A stretch of DNA of 64,000 nucleotides from Pandoraea apista. Lineage in GTDB: Bacteria; Pseudomonadota; Gammaproteobacteria; Burkholderiales; Burkholderiaceae. The position numbers and the translations under genes are program-made. Under the pieces are notes generated by a model. It saw only the letters and a list, made by a program, of their open reading frames with translations. It searched no databases and was not told the DNA's origin. Positions 28,999 through 33,672 of this stretch are shown piece by piece. Numbering within the stretch: the stretch's first letter is position 1; every line of letters starts with the position of its first letter. Location: NCBI RefSeq assembly GCF_001465595.2, contig NZ_CP013481.2:1178001-1242000 (forward strand), given 5' to 3'.

Positions 28999-29099
28999 AA
29001 ACCGCGCCACGCGGTTTGTGCATTGGACCGCACAGCGCTCCATTGGGAAAATTCTCAATGGAGCGTACTTCTACCCCTCCGCGTCATGCGGGGTTTTTC
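28999..29099. terminator. Array of three hairpins between pabB and the repeat-protein island
   Basis: Within the 351-bp gap 28960-29310 I see AAACCGC / GCGGTTT (28999-29005, 29011-29017); CGCTCCATTG / CAATGGAGCG (29036-29045, 29056-29065), whose palindrome almost closes through GAA/TTC in the loop; and a CCGC / GCGG hairpin with GGGTTTTTC after it (about 29078-29098). The last is a credible terminator for the upstream operon. The rest of the gap (29100-29310) must hold the promoter of the repeat-protein gene, but I see no clear hexamers. Confidence 0.6.
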
Positions 29100-29310: not shown

Positions 29311-30381
29311 ATGAACGAGAACGATCTGGAACTGCAGCTTAACGAAGACCAGATTCGCCATATTCAGGCGATGACCGGACAGCGTATCGGGGCGATTCGA
29401 GTGGTGTCGAATTTCCCGGGACTTCAAGGAATACAGGGTGCGCAGGGCGTGCAAGGTGTTCAGGGCATGCAAGGCGCGCAAGGTATGCAGCCTCAGGGTG
29501 TGCAAGGCCCGCAGGGCGTGCAGGGGGTTCAGGGGATGCAAGGCCCGCACGGTATGCAGGGTGCTCAGGGCATGCAAGGGCCCCAGGGATATCAGCACGC
29601 GCAAGGCATGCAAGGCGTTCAAGGCATGCAGGGTCCGCAGGGATACCAGAACGCCCAAGGTGTGCAAGGCCCGCAAGGCATGCAAGGCGTTCAAGGCATG
29701 CAGGGCCCGCAGGGATACCAGCACGCCCAAGGTGTGCAAGGCCCGCAAGGCATGCAAGGCGTTCAAGGCATGCAGGGTCCGCAGGGCTATCAGCACGCCC
29801 AAGGAGTGCAAGGCCCGCAAGGCATGCAAGGGGTTCAAGGCATGCAGGGTCCGCAGGGATATCAGCACGCCCAAGGAGTGCAAGGCCCGCAAGGCATGCA
29901 AGGCGTTCAAGGCATGCAGGGTCCGCAGGGATATCAGCACGCCCAAGGAGTGCAAGGCCCGCAAGGCATGCAAGGCGTTCAAGGCATGCAGGGTCCGCAG
30001 GGATATCAGCACGCCCAAGGAGTGCAAGGCCCGCAAGGCATGCAAGGCGTTCAAGGCATGCAGGGTCCGCAGGGATATCAGCACGCCCAAGGAGTGCAAG
30101 GCCCGCAGGGCATGCAAGGGGCTCAAGGCATGCAGGGCCCGCAGGGATACCAGCACGCCCAAGGTGTGCAAGGCCCGCAGGGCATGCAAGGCGTTCAAGG
30201 CATGCAGGGTCCGCAGGGATACCAGCACGCCCAAGGTGTGCAAGGCCCGCAAGGCATGCAAGGGGTTCAAGGCATGCAGGGCCCGCAGGGATACCAGCAC
30301 GCCCAAGGCGTGCAAGGCCCGCAAGGTGTTCAGGGCCCGGAGCAGGTTCAGGGCATTCAAGGCGCCCAGGGACTGCATTGA
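29311..30381 (+). CDS. G-x-Q triplet-repeat protein (collagen-like periodicity), candidate substrate of the modification island
   Basis: 356 residues. Residues 1-37 are a non-repetitive, acidic leader-like segment containing L-N-E-D-Q-x3-I-x3-T-G-x2-I-x2-I-R-V-V (10-32). From residue 38 nearly every third residue is Gly and every third is Gln: units GVQ, GPQ, GMQ, GAQ and GYQ. A 24-residue unit (GVQGPQGMQGVQ then GMQGPQGYQHAQ) repeats nine times almost unchanged; Y-Q-[HN]-A-Q occurs 11 times. Collagen needs Pro/Hyp and Gly; here Gln dominates and each unit has two Pro, so a true triple helix is uncertain. There is no signal peptide. ATG 29311 has AGGAG eight bases upstream. The four downstream genes include two likely modifying enzymes, so I infer that Tyr/His/Pro/Gln of the repeats are modified. 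No homologue is recognised with certainty. Confidence 0.85.
   Translation: MNENDLELQLNEDQIRHIQAMTGQRIGAIRVVSNFPGLQGIQGAQGVQGVQGMQGAQGMQPQGVQGPQGVQGVQGMQGPHGMQGAQGMQGPQGYQHAQGMQGVQGMQGPQGYQNAQGVQGPQGMQGVQGMQGPQGYQHAQGVQGPQGMQGVQGMQGPQGYQHAQGVQGPQGMQGVQGMQGPQGYQHAQGVQGPQGMQGVQGMQGPQGYQHAQGVQGPQGMQGVQGMQGPQGYQHAQGVQGPQGMQGVQGMQGPQGYQHAQGVQGPQGMQGAQGMQGPQGYQHAQGVQGPQGMQGVQGMQGPQGYQHAQGVQGPQGMQGVQGMQGPQGYQHAQGVQGPQGVQGPEQVQGIQGAQGLH
29641..30288 (+). repeat. Nine tandem 72-bp repeats inside the G-x-Q gene
   Basis: The GGATA(C/T)CAG / GGCTATCAG Tyr codon block recurs at 29641, 29713, 29785, 29857, 29929, 30001, 30073, 30145 and 30217 (and again at 30289), exactly 72 bases apart. Units differ by only a few silent or Val/Ala changes. 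Such long, near-identical in-frame repeats expand and contract by slippage or recombination without frameshift. Confidence 0.95.
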
Positions 30382-30539
30382 TCGTAATGCCGCCGTCTGC
30401 GGCGCGAGAGTGTGTAGAGGGTTTGCGCGCGCTCGCGGCCGTTGACTAATGGTGCGGCTCGGCGGTCGATTCGCCGGGCCGCAAATCCCATGATCCTGAT
30501 GAGGTATCGCTTTCGATAGCTCGTACTGGAGTTGCGATC

Positions 30540-31535
30540 ATGTCGTCAACCCTCATGAACCTGTCGGCGGAGCAACGCGCAAAGCTGTTCGACGCCACAG
30601 GCGCGCCATTGCGCAGACTTCGTATCGATGCGGTTAGCGGCACTGCGCAGGCGATCGACGGCCATTGCCACCGGTGTCTGCTCACCGAGGACTTGCCTGG
30701 CGTTCATATCGCCCCGGACGGCATCTGCGATGCTTGTCACGCGTTCGCAGAGGAATCCGCGCGCGGCGATTACACGCAGCGCAAACTGCTCGATGTGGTG
30801 GCCGCATGCCGGGGCTCGGGCACACCGGATTGCGTGCTGGCGTACTCGGGAGGAAAGGACAGCGCTCTGACGTTACTGCTTGCCGTGAAGGAGCTGGGCC
30901 TGCACCCGATTGCCGTGCTCGTCGACAACGGATTCATCCCCGATGAAGTCAAGACCAATGCGTCGTCGTTCTGTGCTCAGTTCGGCGTCTCGCTCGTGAT
31001 CGAACGGATCGATATTCGCAGGATTGCCCGCGAATCGCTTCAGTCGAGTTCAGGGCGTATTCCCTGTTCCTCGTGTATCAGCGGAGTCTTTGCCGCGATG
31101 GCGAAAACCTGCCGGTCGCTCAATCTCCGCCTCATTCTCAGCGGGCATCGATTCCCGCCGCTTGCCTATCCCGTAAGTGGTTTCACGAAGCGCGAAGCGG
31201 ACAACGGCTTCATCTGCGCTTCGCCGCTGCTCGCCAGACAACTCACTGAAGCAGAGCAAATGCAATGGATTCGGGAGGCGGGCTGGAAACCGGTAGCGAT
31301 GGCCGGCAACACGTCGAACTGCAAGCTGATCGGTGTGGTGGAGCAGCATCTCTACGACGTCCAGGGCTTTAATCCGCACATCTACGAGGTTTCGAAGGAA
31401 ATTCGAGCCGGCTTCTATGACCGCCGTGTGGGTTTCGGGAAAGTCGAACGTCCGGAGATCACGCCGGAGCATCGGCAATGGGTGCTTGACCGGATGCAAG
31501 CCGATACCCCAGAGGTCTCTGATAAACCAGAGTGA
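30540..31535 (+). CDS. PP-loop ATPase with N-terminal four-Cys zinc-ribbon-like motif (N-acetyl sugar amidotransferase/ExsB-like fold)
   Basis: 331 residues. The PP-loop SGGKDS is at 103-108 in VLAYSGGKDSALTLLL, so the protein should adenylate a carboxylate or amide/ nucleobase oxygen. Four Cys at 43, 46, 63 and 66 (HCHRC ... GICDAC) resemble the zinc-binding start of WbpG-type amidotransferases. Another C-x-x-C (176, 179; IPCSSC) and LILSGHRFPP (198-207) follow. Residues 8-29 carry the L-S-x-E-Q-x3-L-x3-T-G-x2-L-x2-L-R motif shared with the repeat protein and the 120-residue protein. It overlaps the next gene by four bases (GTGA). The likely role is ATP-dependent activation of the peptide substrate or of a cofactor; the reaction is not known. 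Confidence 0.8.
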   Translation: MSSTLMNLSAEQRAKLFDATGAPLRRLRIDAVSGTAQAIDGHCHRCLLTEDLPGVHIAPDGICDACHAFAEESARGDYTQRKLLDVVAACRGSGTPDCVLAYSGGKDSALTLLLAVKELGLHPIAVLVDNGFIPDEVKTNASSFCAQFGVSLVIERIDIRRIARESLQSSSGRIPCSSCISGVFAAMAKTCRSLNLRLILSGHRFPPLAYPVSGFTKREADNGFICASPLLARQLTEAEQMQWIREAGWKPVAMAGNTSNCKLIGVVEQHLYDVQGFNPHIYEVSKEIRAGFYDRRVGFGKVERPEITPEHRQWVLDRMQADTPEVSDKPE

Positions 31536-32098
31536 GTCACATGCACGATTCCATCATTGTTACCGACAACTTCTATCGCGACCCGAACGATGTCCGGACG
31601 TTTGCACTGGATCAGGCGTTCACGGTAAAGGGAAACTATCCCGGCGCCCGCACTGGGCCATTCCTGCATGACGGCGTGATGGACGCTATCCAGCATATCG
31701 TCAAGTCGCCGATTACGTATTGGCCGCCGGACACGTACAACGGCGCGTTTCAATACAGCGTCAAGCAGGACACGACATGGGTGCATGCGGATCACACCAC
31801 CGTATGGTCCGGCGTGGTCTACCTTACACCGGACGCCCCCCCTCAGGCCGGAACAGCGTTCTACCAGCATAACGAAACGGGCTTCGATCTCTACCCAGAC
31901 GACGAAAGGCAGCGCGCGTCGTGCGATGCCGACGCCACCGCCTGGGAGCGCTGGACGGTGACCGACCGGATTGCCAACCGCTTCAATCGCCTGATCTTGT
32001 TTCGGGGGCGTCGCTTCCATGCGAGTCAGGGACATTTCGGCGACTGCAAGGAGAACGGTCGTTTGTTTCAGACATTCTTTTTCAACACGCACTCCTAA
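31532..32098 (+). CDS. 2OG-Fe(II) oxygenase-like protein (DUF6445-like)
   Basis: 188 residues from GTG 31532, or 185 from ATG 31541. The fold looks like a double-stranded beta-helix oxygenase: H85-x-D87 in WVHADHTTVWSGVVYLTP, a distal His163 in ILFRGRRFHAS and Arg177 in GRLFQTFFF, the spacing of the H-x-D...H iron triad and the 2-oxoglutarate Arg seen in prolyl-4-hydroxylase-like enzymes. The context (triplet-repeat protein, radical SAM maturase) suggests hydroxylation of residues in the repeat protein, by analogy with collagen prolyl hydroxylase. Substrate and activity are inferences. Confidence 0.72.
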   Translation: MSHMHDSIIVTDNFYRDPNDVRTFALDQAFTVKGNYPGARTGPFLHDGVMDAIQHIVKSPITYWPPDTYNGAFQYSVKQDTTWVHADHTTVWSGVVYLTPDAPPQAGTAFYQHNETGFDLYPDDERQRASCDADATAWERWTVTDRIANRFNRLILFRGRRFHASQGHFGDCKENGRLFQTFFFNTHS

Positions 32099-32130
32099 TT
32101 CGTATCTTCCCACCTGAAGGAGGCAATGAG

Positions 32131-32493
32131 ATGGCAGCTTCGGAACTGTTTTTCCCAGTGGGGTCGCTCGGTCTGAGCAAGGAGCAATCGGCGAAGATCA
32201 AGACGGCGTTCGGACATGAGGTCGAGAGCGTGCCGTTGTATCGCGTGGTGCCTGTGTCATCCGAAGACCGCTTCGTGCCGTTGGCCGACGTGCCGGGATT
32301 GCCGGGCATACTCGTTCATTACGGCAACGCGGCGGCACCGGCCGGCACCAACATCATTGCGTCGGTGATTTCGGATATGGCAAGGGGAACCGATGACTCG
32401 GCGGTATTCGCCGCGCATACAAAGCTCATGGCGCCGCATCCGGACGACGGTGTCGCCAAAGCGCGCGCGCCTGCGGCCGGTAAAGCGAAGTGA
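32131..32493 (+). CDS. 120-residue protein of the repeat-protein island, unknown; candidate precursor or adaptor
   Basis: A very strong ribosome-binding site (AAGGAGG) precedes ATG 32131. Residues 15-34 have the motif L-S-K-E-Q-x3-I-x3-F-G-x2-V-x2-V that also opens the PP-loop and repeat proteins. A middle part (about 40-95: PVSSEDRFVPLADVPG, ILVHYGNAAAPAGTNIIAS) looks folded; the last 15 residues are an A/K-rich tail. No signal peptide, no Cys. The gene sits between the oxygenase-like and radical SAM genes. It could be a second peptide substrate, a recognition/adaptor subunit or a scaffold. I do not recognise the family. Confidence 0.7.
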   Translation: MAASELFFPVGSLGLSKEQSAKIKTAFGHEVESVPLYRVVPVSSEDRFVPLADVPGLPGILVHYGNAAAPAGTNIIASVISDMARGTDDSAVFAAHTKLMAPHPDDGVAKARAPAAGKAK

Positions 32494-32511
32494 ATTGACG
32501 CCCCCGTCTCG

Positions 32512-33672
32512 ATGACCACGCACAGTGGCGATAAGGACGATGTCGCGTCAGGCGGTGCGGGCGATCTTCTGGTGATGGTCAAGGTCGCCGAGCGCTGCAA
32601 TATCGATTGCGACTATTGCTACATGTACCGGGGTGTTGATCAAGGTTGGCGGCAGCGCCCCAAATTCCTGAGCGAACCTCATCTCGACCAGTTGGTCGAG
32701 CGTCTGATCGAGCACCGCCACGCGTTCCCCGCGGCAAGAATGACGTTGGAGATTCACGGAGGAGAGCCGCTGTTGCTCGGCAAACGCCGCACGGCCCGAT
32801 TCTTCGAACATTTGCGAAATCGATTGACCGAAGCCGAGTTGGCCATCGTGACGCAAAGCAACGGTGTGTTAATAGACACGGCCTGGCTGGATCTGTATGC
32901 CGAGTTTGGCGCCACACTCGGAATCAGCTGCGATGGCCCTCCCGCGCTGCATGATCGGCATCGATACGATTTCGAGAAGCAAGGAACTGGGGCGCGTGTC
33001 GAGCAGGCGATTCGCCTGTGCCTCTCCTACCCGCAGTCGCGGCGCGTGTTCAATGGCGTGCTGGCTGTCATCGATCCCAACAACGATCCGGTCAGAATCC
33101 TCGACTACTTTCGCGCATTGGGGTTGAGCGACGTGGACTTTCTCTTGCCCGATGCCAACTTTGCCGCCCCTCCACGGCACATTCAGGCGTATACGCACGC
33201 GCGTCTGCTGGCTTTCCTGTGTCGAGGGTTCGACGCGTGGTGGGCTCTCGACGACCCGGCGTTTCACGTGCGCATCTTTGAAACGTTCATCCGGGGGGTA
33301 CTGGGCCGTCGTTCCGAACTCGATGCATTTGGTGGCGCGTTGGCGCCGATCGCCGTGGTCGAGAGTGACGGCGGATATCGGTTGCTGGACGTACTTTCCA
33401 TCTGCAAGACCGATGCGAGTTACACGGGACTGGGTCTCGAGACGCATGCGCTTCAGGACTTCGTCGACCTCGCGCGCACTCGCTATCCAGAGGTTCACGC
33501 GGCCTGTCGTCAGTGTGATGCGTTTGTCGCGTGCGGTGGCGGCTACGTCGCCCATCGCTTCGATGGCGAAAGTTACGACAATCCCAGCTTCTATTGCAAC
33601 GCGTTAGTCGGCTTCTATCGACATGTGCGTGCACGCGTGAACAACCTCTCGAAAGCAACGCGGCTCAAATAA
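32512..33672 (+). CDS. Radical SAM/SPASM peptide-maturase-like enzyme (cyclophane-forming type)
   Basis: 386 residues. The SAM [4Fe-4S] motif C29-x3-C33-x2-C36 lies in VAERCNIDCDYCYMY, and GGEP at 83-86 binds the SAM amino group. The C-terminal cysteines 298, 332, 335, 341 and 362 (CRQCDAFVACGGGYVAHR ... SFYC) fit a SPASM-type auxiliary cluster domain. The CGGGY..HR...NPSFYC layout is that of FxsB/XyeB/GrrM-like maturases, which join an aromatic side chain to the beta-carbon of a residue two positions on, forming three-residue cyclophanes. The repeat protein offers Y-Q-H and H-A-Q in every unit. No anchor or export signal. The ribosome-binding site is weak; the start lies 18 bases after the previous stop. 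Confidence 0.88.
   Translation: MTTHSGDKDDVASGGAGDLLVMVKVAERCNIDCDYCYMYRGVDQGWRQRPKFLSEPHLDQLVERLIEHRHAFPAARMTLEIHGGEPLLLGKRRTARFFEHLRNRLTEAELAIVTQSNGVLIDTAWLDLYAEFGATLGISCDGPPALHDRHRYDFEKQGTGARVEQAIRLCLSYPQSRRVFNGVLAVIDPNNDPVRILDYFRALGLSDVDFLLPDANFAAPPRHIQAYTHARLLAFLCRGFDAWWALDDPAFHVRIFETFIRGVLGRRSELDAFGGALAPIAVVESDGGYRLLDVLSICKTDASYTGLGLETHALQDFVDLARTRYPEVHAACRQCDAFVACGGGYVAHRFDGESYDNPSFYCNALVGFYRHVRARVNNLSKATRLK

Follow-up and report, generated by a model that had tools for sequence, protein, structure and literature searches.

A five-gene Pandoraea island predicted to introduce cyclophanes into a collagen-like repeat protein

The 64,000-nucleotide stretch of the Pandoraea apista genome considered here (assembly GCF_001465595.2, contig NZ_CP013481.2, positions 1,178,001 to 1,242,000; hereafter the window) carries a five-gene island that encodes a collagen-like repeat protein together with candidate enzymes for its modification. 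Open reading frame (ORF) analysis of the window places the genes, which we call rep, pp, ox, sm and rsam, in that order on the + strand at 29311-33672, where a first-pass annotation made from the DNA letters alone had marked a compact set of five same-strand genes (Table 1). The reading frames of pp and ox overlap by 4 bp. The gene content and order are repeated in related genomes, and the closest named relatives of rsam are those of P. horticolens, P. communis and P. bronchicola (92-94% protein identity). Neither an exporter nor a protease gene is present among the five, as judged from the ORFs and Pfam.

Table 1. Features of the island, numbered from the first nucleotide of the window.
Feature	Position	Strand	Basis
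rep: 356-residue collagen-like protein, presumed rsam substrate	29311..30381	+	ORF; Pfam Collagen; N-terminus in 11/32 genus genomes
Leader/docking-like module at the N-terminus of rep (residues 1-36)	29311..29418	+	hhalign against sm and pp; column shuffles
11 predicted cyclophane sites	29590..30300	+	Y94-Q-H96, Y112-Q-N114, and Y-Q-H at Y136, 160, 184, 208, 232, 256, 280, 304, 328
Tandem array, 72-bp unit PQGYQHAQGVQGPQGMQGVQGMQG	29600..30326	+	10.1 copies, 96% matches, Tandem Repeats Finder
pp: 331-residue PP-loop ATPase, amidotransferase/sulfurtransferase-like, with shared N-terminal module	30540..31535	+	TIGR03573 below cut-off; SGGKDS; invariant Cys
ox: 188-residue DUF6445 protein, putative 2-oxoglutarate (2OG)-Fe(II) oxygenase, GTG start	31532..32098	+	PF20043; invariant H85-x-D87...H163...R177
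sm: 120 residues, shared module near N-terminus	32131..32493	+	13-sequence alignment; 11/32 genus genomes
rsam: 386-residue radical S-adenosylmethionine (SAM)/SPASM enzyme, FxsB/YhhB superfamily	32512..33672	+	Profiles, tree, conserved Cys; orthologue in 10/32 genus genomes

The product of rep scores well above the cut-off of Pfam Collagen (PF01391; 139.3 bits, cut-off 27.2) and spans 281-384 residues among full-length copies. It had been described in the first-pass annotation as a protein of G-x-Q triplets. This is right for the intact triplets, of which 79 of 80 end in Gln in the window copy and 72 of 77 in L055, the least regular of the other copies; what this description missed is a periodic replacement of glycine, roughly one per 24-residue unit (...GPQGYQHAQGVQ...). 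Residues are numbered here from the X position of a Gly-X-Y triplet, which is referred to as i, such that i+2 is the position of the next glycine. All 11 tyrosines in the repeat domain of the window copy occupy X, and each is followed at i+2 by a residue other than Gly (His in 10, Asn in 1), whereas the same is true of only 2 of 82 non-aromatic X residues. The pattern holds across ten genomes that contain rsam (one with a partial rep), where Tyr or His in X is followed by a non-Gly residue at i+2 in 71 of 71 cases, as compared to 37 of 766 for non-aromatic X residues, and where the lone Phe in X has Gly at i+2. Nine trimer types occur (YQH, YQY, YQN, YQQ, YQP, YPN, YLH, HQY and HLN), none of which ends in Gly. 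Fisher tests of the association between Tyr/His in X and Gly replacement return tiny p-values for sites that depend on one another through tandem duplication, and for this reason the distinct trimers and the contrast with P. terrae (below) outweigh the p-values. The H-L-N trimer, a Gly to Asn replacement counted among the 71, lies at rep residues 52-54 of L055, L056 and L057, outside the regular Y-Q-H repeats.

The first-pass annotation also proposed a radical SAM/SPASM maturase, and rsam bears this out, as it exceeds the cut-off of Radical_SAM (PF04055; 43.9 bits, cut-off 29.5) and retains invariant cysteines in eight sequences, namely C29-x3-C33-x2-C36 and C298, C332, C335, C341 and C362, the latter group of which are the presumed auxiliary-cluster ligands of this family. 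Its best specific profile is YhhB (NF041707; 302.5 bits, cut-off 445), followed by FxsB (TIGR04269; 286.9 bits, cut-off 370), and it shares 34% identity, across 371 aligned positions, with a YhhB that scores above its family cut-off. The eight Pandoraea rsam sequences group in a clade of their own (100/100) when placed in a 24-protein tree, which does not resolve the position of that clade. On these comparisons rsam is assigned to the FxsB/YhhB superfamily of three-residue-cyclophane enzymes, while its classification as a plain YhhB was rejected because the curated cut-offs are missed. Of the loci of more distant relatives (25-38% identity), 11 on plasmids were inspected, 10 of them annotated, and in nine of these ten a coding sequence of 47-83 residues lies just upstream of the relative; the tenth (L072) has no short coding sequence annotated at that place. 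A pattern scan of five distant radical SAM loci (L014-L018) found no collagen-like ORF. A second FxsB-like radical SAM gene, 28-33% identical to rsam, is present in six Pandoraea genomes (G204, G168, G198, G216, G251 and G062). Separately, plasmids of Gloeobacter (L074:3686-3937) and Calothrix (L075:3550-3759) encode short peptides beside FxsB/YhhB-type enzymes; these peptides contain W-M-I, F-P-R, W-T-L or F-S-R near the C-terminus, and are possible further cyclophane precursors.

Enzymes that form three-residue cyclophanes connect residues i and i+2 through a bond between the aromatic ring of the first and the beta-carbon of the second, the bonds made by YhhB being C3(Tyr)-Cbeta(Arg) and C2(His)-Cbeta(Arg), according to the review PMC11002830. 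Two plasmid-encoded YhhA precursors end in motifs of this kind, Y-D-R/H-H-R/H-N-R in the one that was scored against NF041705 and Y-D-R/H-N-R/H-N-R in the one annotated as YhhA. Because glycine has no beta-carbon, a ring in X of a collagen-like chain could serve as a substrate only if the glycine at i+2 were replaced, and the rep sequences display just such replacements. Taking the evidence together, we consider it probable that the island is a RiPP-like (ribosomally synthesized and post-translationally modified peptide) system for protein modification, with a collagen-like substrate in which rsam would form cyclophanes at Tyr/His-x-X. A RiPP-like system acting on a triplet-repeat protein had been proposed at first pass; the co-inheritance of the genes and the Y/H-x-X motifs that track rsam favor this core of the proposal, while two of its elements, hydroxylation of the repeats and the 120-residue protein as a substrate, are conjectural.

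The genome of P. terrae (G245) provides a view of rep in a setting that lacks rsam. It contains rep-pp-ox-sm in that order, and although the assembly is 99% complete it has no rsam orthologue, its two matches lying elsewhere at 25% (residues 19-376) and 31% identity (residues 21-120). In its rep, an aromatic residue or His fills X 22 times, with Gly kept at i+2 in all but one of these (21 of 22), the exception being H-P-L, and Phe or Trp occupies X 14 times, as compared to once in all of the copies that accompany rsam. The contrast, drawn from one genome, is suggestive of a tie between the Y/H-x-X motif and rsam. It also bears on a rather unlikely alternative, in which the regular Y-x-H spacing reflects breaks in the collagen triple helix, structural or metal-binding, that have nothing to do with rsam, and the association is historical. 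Natural collagens contain G-X-Y interruptions, tandem duplication multiplies any single one of them, and only a single genome without rsam is available for comparison; however, the difference in Phe/Trp content speaks against this explanation, as does the variety of the sites, since i+2 may be H, Y, N, Q or P, i is His in L053 and L054, and Gly is never found at i+2 of these sites where rsam is present. A residue that varies but is never Gly fits the need for a beta-carbon better than it fits a fixed metal site.

The five genes co-occur, as the first-pass annotation suggested should be asked of them. The rep N-terminus, pp and sm are found in an identical set of 11 of the 32 Pandoraea genomes, and rsam orthologues are found in 10 of the 32, every one of which is within this set (orthologues in the genus being taken at identities of at least 71% for pp and at least 77% for rsam). 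Four further Pandoraea genomes reach E 1e-30 for rsam, only through matches of 28-29% identity. The ox gene is present in 10 of 10 relatives' loci examined, and rep N-termini identical to that of the window occur in other genomes of the genus. A homologue search with the first 46 residues of rep gave 4 candidates, none of which scored, and in view of these identical N-termini it carries no information on distribution. Within the genus the enzymes do not usually occur without a repeat protein, as rep is found together with pp in 11 of 11 genomes. In three of three genomes without the cluster that were examined, the flanks, which by sequence are a pabBC-like gene and a putative substrate-binding gene of an ABC transporter, are only 70-97 bp apart between match ends, as compared to about 4.8 kb in the window; this empty site limits the island to five genes. 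Together, rep, pp, ox, sm and rsam are supported as one co-inherited accessory set, and a chance neighborhood was rejected on the strength of the co-occurrence and the empty site. Purifying selection acts on four of the genes. Their dN/dS (the ratio of nonsynonymous to synonymous substitution rates) is about 0.04-0.11 in pp (9 loci), ox (9) and rsam (8) and somewhat higher in sm, at 0.10-0.32 (9 loci); at the four most distant loci, dS has approached or passed saturation.

The island has occupied more than one place, as it and the pabBC-like gene are on separate contigs in four genomes (G031, G062, G233 and G245), and in G233 neither flank gene is found in the stretches examined on either side of it. 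In G251 rep is split over two contigs, with its N-terminus on C107 beside the pabBC-like gene and the remainder on C203, apparently by an assembly break within the repeats. Outside the genus, a 5.3-kb contig of Paraburkholderia ribeironis (L061:1-5294) carries pp-ox-sm-rsam in the order of the window, with an interrupted rsam, a pp that lacks one conserved Cys, and frames that we presume to be transposase-like upstream of pp, at the place of rep, and downstream. This is a decayed copy of the island, and the only orthologous locus found without rep. Beyond its own genome, pp was not detected among 399 sampled genomes of the order (E <= 1e-20) or 398 sampled genomes of the phylum (E <= 1e-40), and it is present in 0 of 60 and 1 of 144 genomes of two other genera in the family. 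Among 299 sampled genomes of the family, 42 match pp at E <= 0.001, and the 11 with at least 71% identity are all Pandoraea; relatives of 45-67% identity exist, that of P. ribeironis among them, and viral contigs gave at least three weak PP-loop matches (27-36% identity). A search for sm homologues returned seven matches, and all those named are Pandoraea.

A further link between the genes is an N-terminal module that rep, sm and pp have in common. Alignment of the N-termini with hhalign gave E values of 1.1e-4 for rep-sm, 3e-6 for rep-pp and 2.6e-5 for sm-pp, while control stretches of ox gave 0.05 or worse; the pairs had been picked after a resemblance was noticed by eye. None of 200 column shuffles per pair reached the real score, the nearest approach being rep-sm (23.3, best shuffle 23.2). 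The pattern L-x-L-x-x-E-Q-x-x-x-I/L-x-x-x-T-G is present in rep and pp and is looser in sm, and aligned PP-loop relatives of 45-67% identity retain the module. We infer that it has a docking or leader function.

The PP-loop motif predicted at first pass is present in pp (SGGKDS, 30846-30863, S103-S108), as are ten cysteines that are invariant in nine loci (C43, C46, C63, C66, C145, C176, C179, C191, C226 and C261). The motifs SGGXDS and CXXCXn[GN]XCXXC define N-acetyl sugar amidotransferases (NASATs) in PMC10607449, and pp carries both, the second through C43/C46/C63/C66 with G61. In addition, C176-x2-C179 aligns with P-C-S-Y-C of TtuA PH0300, the third Cys falling outside the aligned stretch; the [4Fe-4S] cluster of TtuA has three Cys ligands (PMC6225789). 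Based on the NASAT motifs and the P-C-x2-C aligned with TtuA, pp probably activates an amide carbonyl, and the Gln side chains of rep would be an obvious target. These motifs also lend themselves to a very improbable account of the island as a locus for surface sugars or an adhesin, in which rep would be an ordinary bacterial adhesin of the collagen-like kind and pp would act on a glycan as an N-acetyl-sugar amidotransferase. The best NCBIfam match of pp is indeed WbuX (TIGR03573), and rep does match collagen-like adhesin profiles, although far under their cut-offs. Against this account, the WbuX score of pp, 97.7 bits, is below the cut-off of 203.2, sugar and glutaminase genes are missing from the five genes to which the empty site limits the island, and pp has the N-terminal module in common with rep and sm.

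The ox protein exceeds the cut-off of DUF6445 (PF20043; 49.9 bits, cut-off 24), as do orthologues (53.1 and 46.1 bits), and its H-x-D...H...R residues are invariant in 10 sequences. These residues and a weak match to 2OG-FeII_Oxy_5 (E 0.11; 13.3 bits, cut-off 27) suggest that ox is a putative 2OG-Fe(II) oxygenase. Three orthologues have no match to YhhC (NF041706) up to E 10, BLASTP returned E 0.49, and sequence comparison yielded no relative of solved structure. The predicted structures of sm and ox are of a confidence too low to be useful (pLDDT, the predicted local distance difference test, of 47 and 38.6, respectively).

The sm protein matches no Pfam or NCBIfam family. It contains an invariant FAAHTKLMAP segment (32407-32436; 13-sequence alignment), and through the H-T-K of this segment it could itself be a substrate. 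Were rsam, with ox, to modify sm as its precursor with FAAHTKLMAP as the core, rep would be a scaffold or a product of pp and ox only. We regard this as unlikely even though sm is directly upstream of rsam, has the precursor-like layout of an N-terminal module followed by a conserved later motif, and displays an H-x-K that resembles the H-x-R sites of YhhA, as H-T-K does not track rsam, being equally invariant in P. terrae where rsam is missing, whereas the rep motif does.

The preferred reading, in which rsam most likely stitches Tyr/His-x-X cyclophanes into the collagen-like rep protein, suggests the following order of events. The N-terminal module of rep, which is apparent in its sequence, would dock rep to the modification enzymes, and sm and pp, bearing a similar module, would probably join the assembly. 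The rsam enzyme would then couple the Tyr or His ring at i to the beta-carbon at i+2, the observed motif pattern predicting a cyclophane at each Y-Q-H, Y-Q-Y, Y-Q-N or H-Q-Y and up to 11 per chain. More tentatively, pp, using ATP, may activate an amide carbonyl and exchange its oxygen for nitrogen or sulfur, and ox may hydroxylate rep, presumably within the G-X-Q triplets. That pp and ox act on rep is weakly suggested by their retention in P. terrae, which has neither rsam nor the Y-x-H sites. The resulting collagen-like chain would be interrupted and rigidified at intervals. A wider reading adds a thioamide or amidine made by the PP-loop enzyme and 2OG-dependent hydroxylation along the near-invariant Gln (and Pro) of the triplets to the cyclophanes at replaced glycines, with all enzymes docked through one module; we offer it with little confidence.

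Several observations weigh against the cyclophane reading. The cross-link is predicted from a sequence pattern, the 71 sites are not independent as many were copied by tandem duplication, and the comparison without rsam is one genome, in which H-P-L places a non-Gly residue after His. The rsam enzyme itself is under the YhhB and FxsB curated cut-offs and in a separate clade. Within rep, the linker Tyr42 of L055 and L057, outside the X register, has Gly at i+2, as does Phe58 of L055 (Phe58-Q-Gly); glycines are also lost where Tyr or His does not precede them, with MQS, MQP, MQW, MQA, MQD and AQS among the 37, as well as N-Q-H in L054 and Trp at two Gly positions of L049. Eight His residues are in the Y register, from which i+2 does not fall on a glycine position; they resemble plain Gln-to-His changes. 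Sites are few in L055, L056 and L057 (4, 2 and 3, those of L056 being YQH and HLN). Finally, the cyclophane precursors used for comparison are 47-60 residues long, as against the 281-384 of rep, and the invariant H-T-K of sm could be the substrate motif instead.

A scan of the window found no sigma-70-like promoter, terminator-like sites are fewer than in shuffled sequences, no Rfam match reached the gathering score, and a hairpin between rep and pp varies among the loci and is not uniform. A near-palindrome surrounds CCATTGGGAAAATTCTCAATGG at 29039-29062 of the window, about 270 bp upstream of rep; it was dropped as a candidate element, as the pattern is missing upstream of rep in 10 relatives' loci.

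If the cyclophane reading is correct, the island would offer genetically encoded control over where rigid cross-links go in a collagen-like chain, a novel route to stitched collagen. Cyclophane radical SAM chemistry is known on short peptides, and its predicted use here on a long structural protein would link two previously separate fields, while giving DUF6445 and a PP-loop family without a known substrate their first context. The wider reading, if true, would describe a RiPP pathway that acts on a true Gly-X-Y collagen, the first of its kind as far as the literature searches show.

Among the papers listed from the open-access literature (most subscription papers lie outside it), no system combines a collagen-like protein with radical SAM cyclophane formation, and that literature yielded no paper on DUF6445 or on a collagen-like protein with Pandoraea. 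Known systems nevertheless resemble parts of the island. Like the bacterial collagen-like proteins Bucl, Scl and Lcl, rep has a Gly-X-Y repeat that is above the Pfam Collagen cut-off; unlike them, it has a near-invariant Gln in the Y position and an N-terminal module, with no known surface domain. Bacterial collagen-like proteins are not known to have radical SAM, PP-loop and DUF6445 genes as neighbors. The pp enzyme has the SGGKDS PP-loop and tetracysteine motif of WbuX, WbpG and LpNASAT and a P-C-x2-C that aligns with that of the TtuA-type thiolase PH0300, but differs from WbuX in its sub-threshold score, its N-terminal module and the lack of a sugar gene among the five.

With regard to mechanism, the closest parallel is to the YhhA/YhhB/YhhC systems of Vibrio (L077) and Novosphingobium (L071), which also pair an FxsB/YhhB-type radical SAM/SPASM enzyme with Tyr or His at i and, two positions on, a residue that has a beta-carbon, and which have an oxygenase gene alongside (the YhhC 2OG oxygenase in L077, a fused aKG-HExxH hydroxylase domain in L071). 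Their precursors are only 47 and 60 residues long with C-terminal YDR/HNR-type motifs, whereas the sites of rep are found throughout its repeats, and neither rep nor sm matches the YhhA family (NF041705) at E up to 1, as compared to 60.9 bits for the Novosphingobium YhhA. The island further differs in that ox has no detectable similarity to YhhC, a PP-loop enzyme and sm are additional, and rsam scores below the YhhB cut-off. The island would work like a triceptide system, while by curated cut-offs it is a member of neither YhhB nor FxsB. The Tvg system of Halomonas (TvgA with TVGG repeats, the radical SAM enzyme TvgB and the Fe/2OG enzyme TvgC) likewise combines a repetitive substrate, on which its radical SAM enzyme acts repeatedly, with an Fe/2OG gene, but as described in PMC9062424 it forms cyclopropylglycine on Val, has no collagen repeat and includes peptidase and transporter genes. 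Nearest among the papers listed is corallotide, a large repetitive graspetide, which according to PMC13097080 resembles the island in its large repeated precursor, 2OG oxygenase and partner protein, and which behaves physically like collagen although its authors state that it has no Gly-Xaa-Yaa repeat; its chemistry differs from that predicted here, being the isopeptide formation of a graspetide synthetase.

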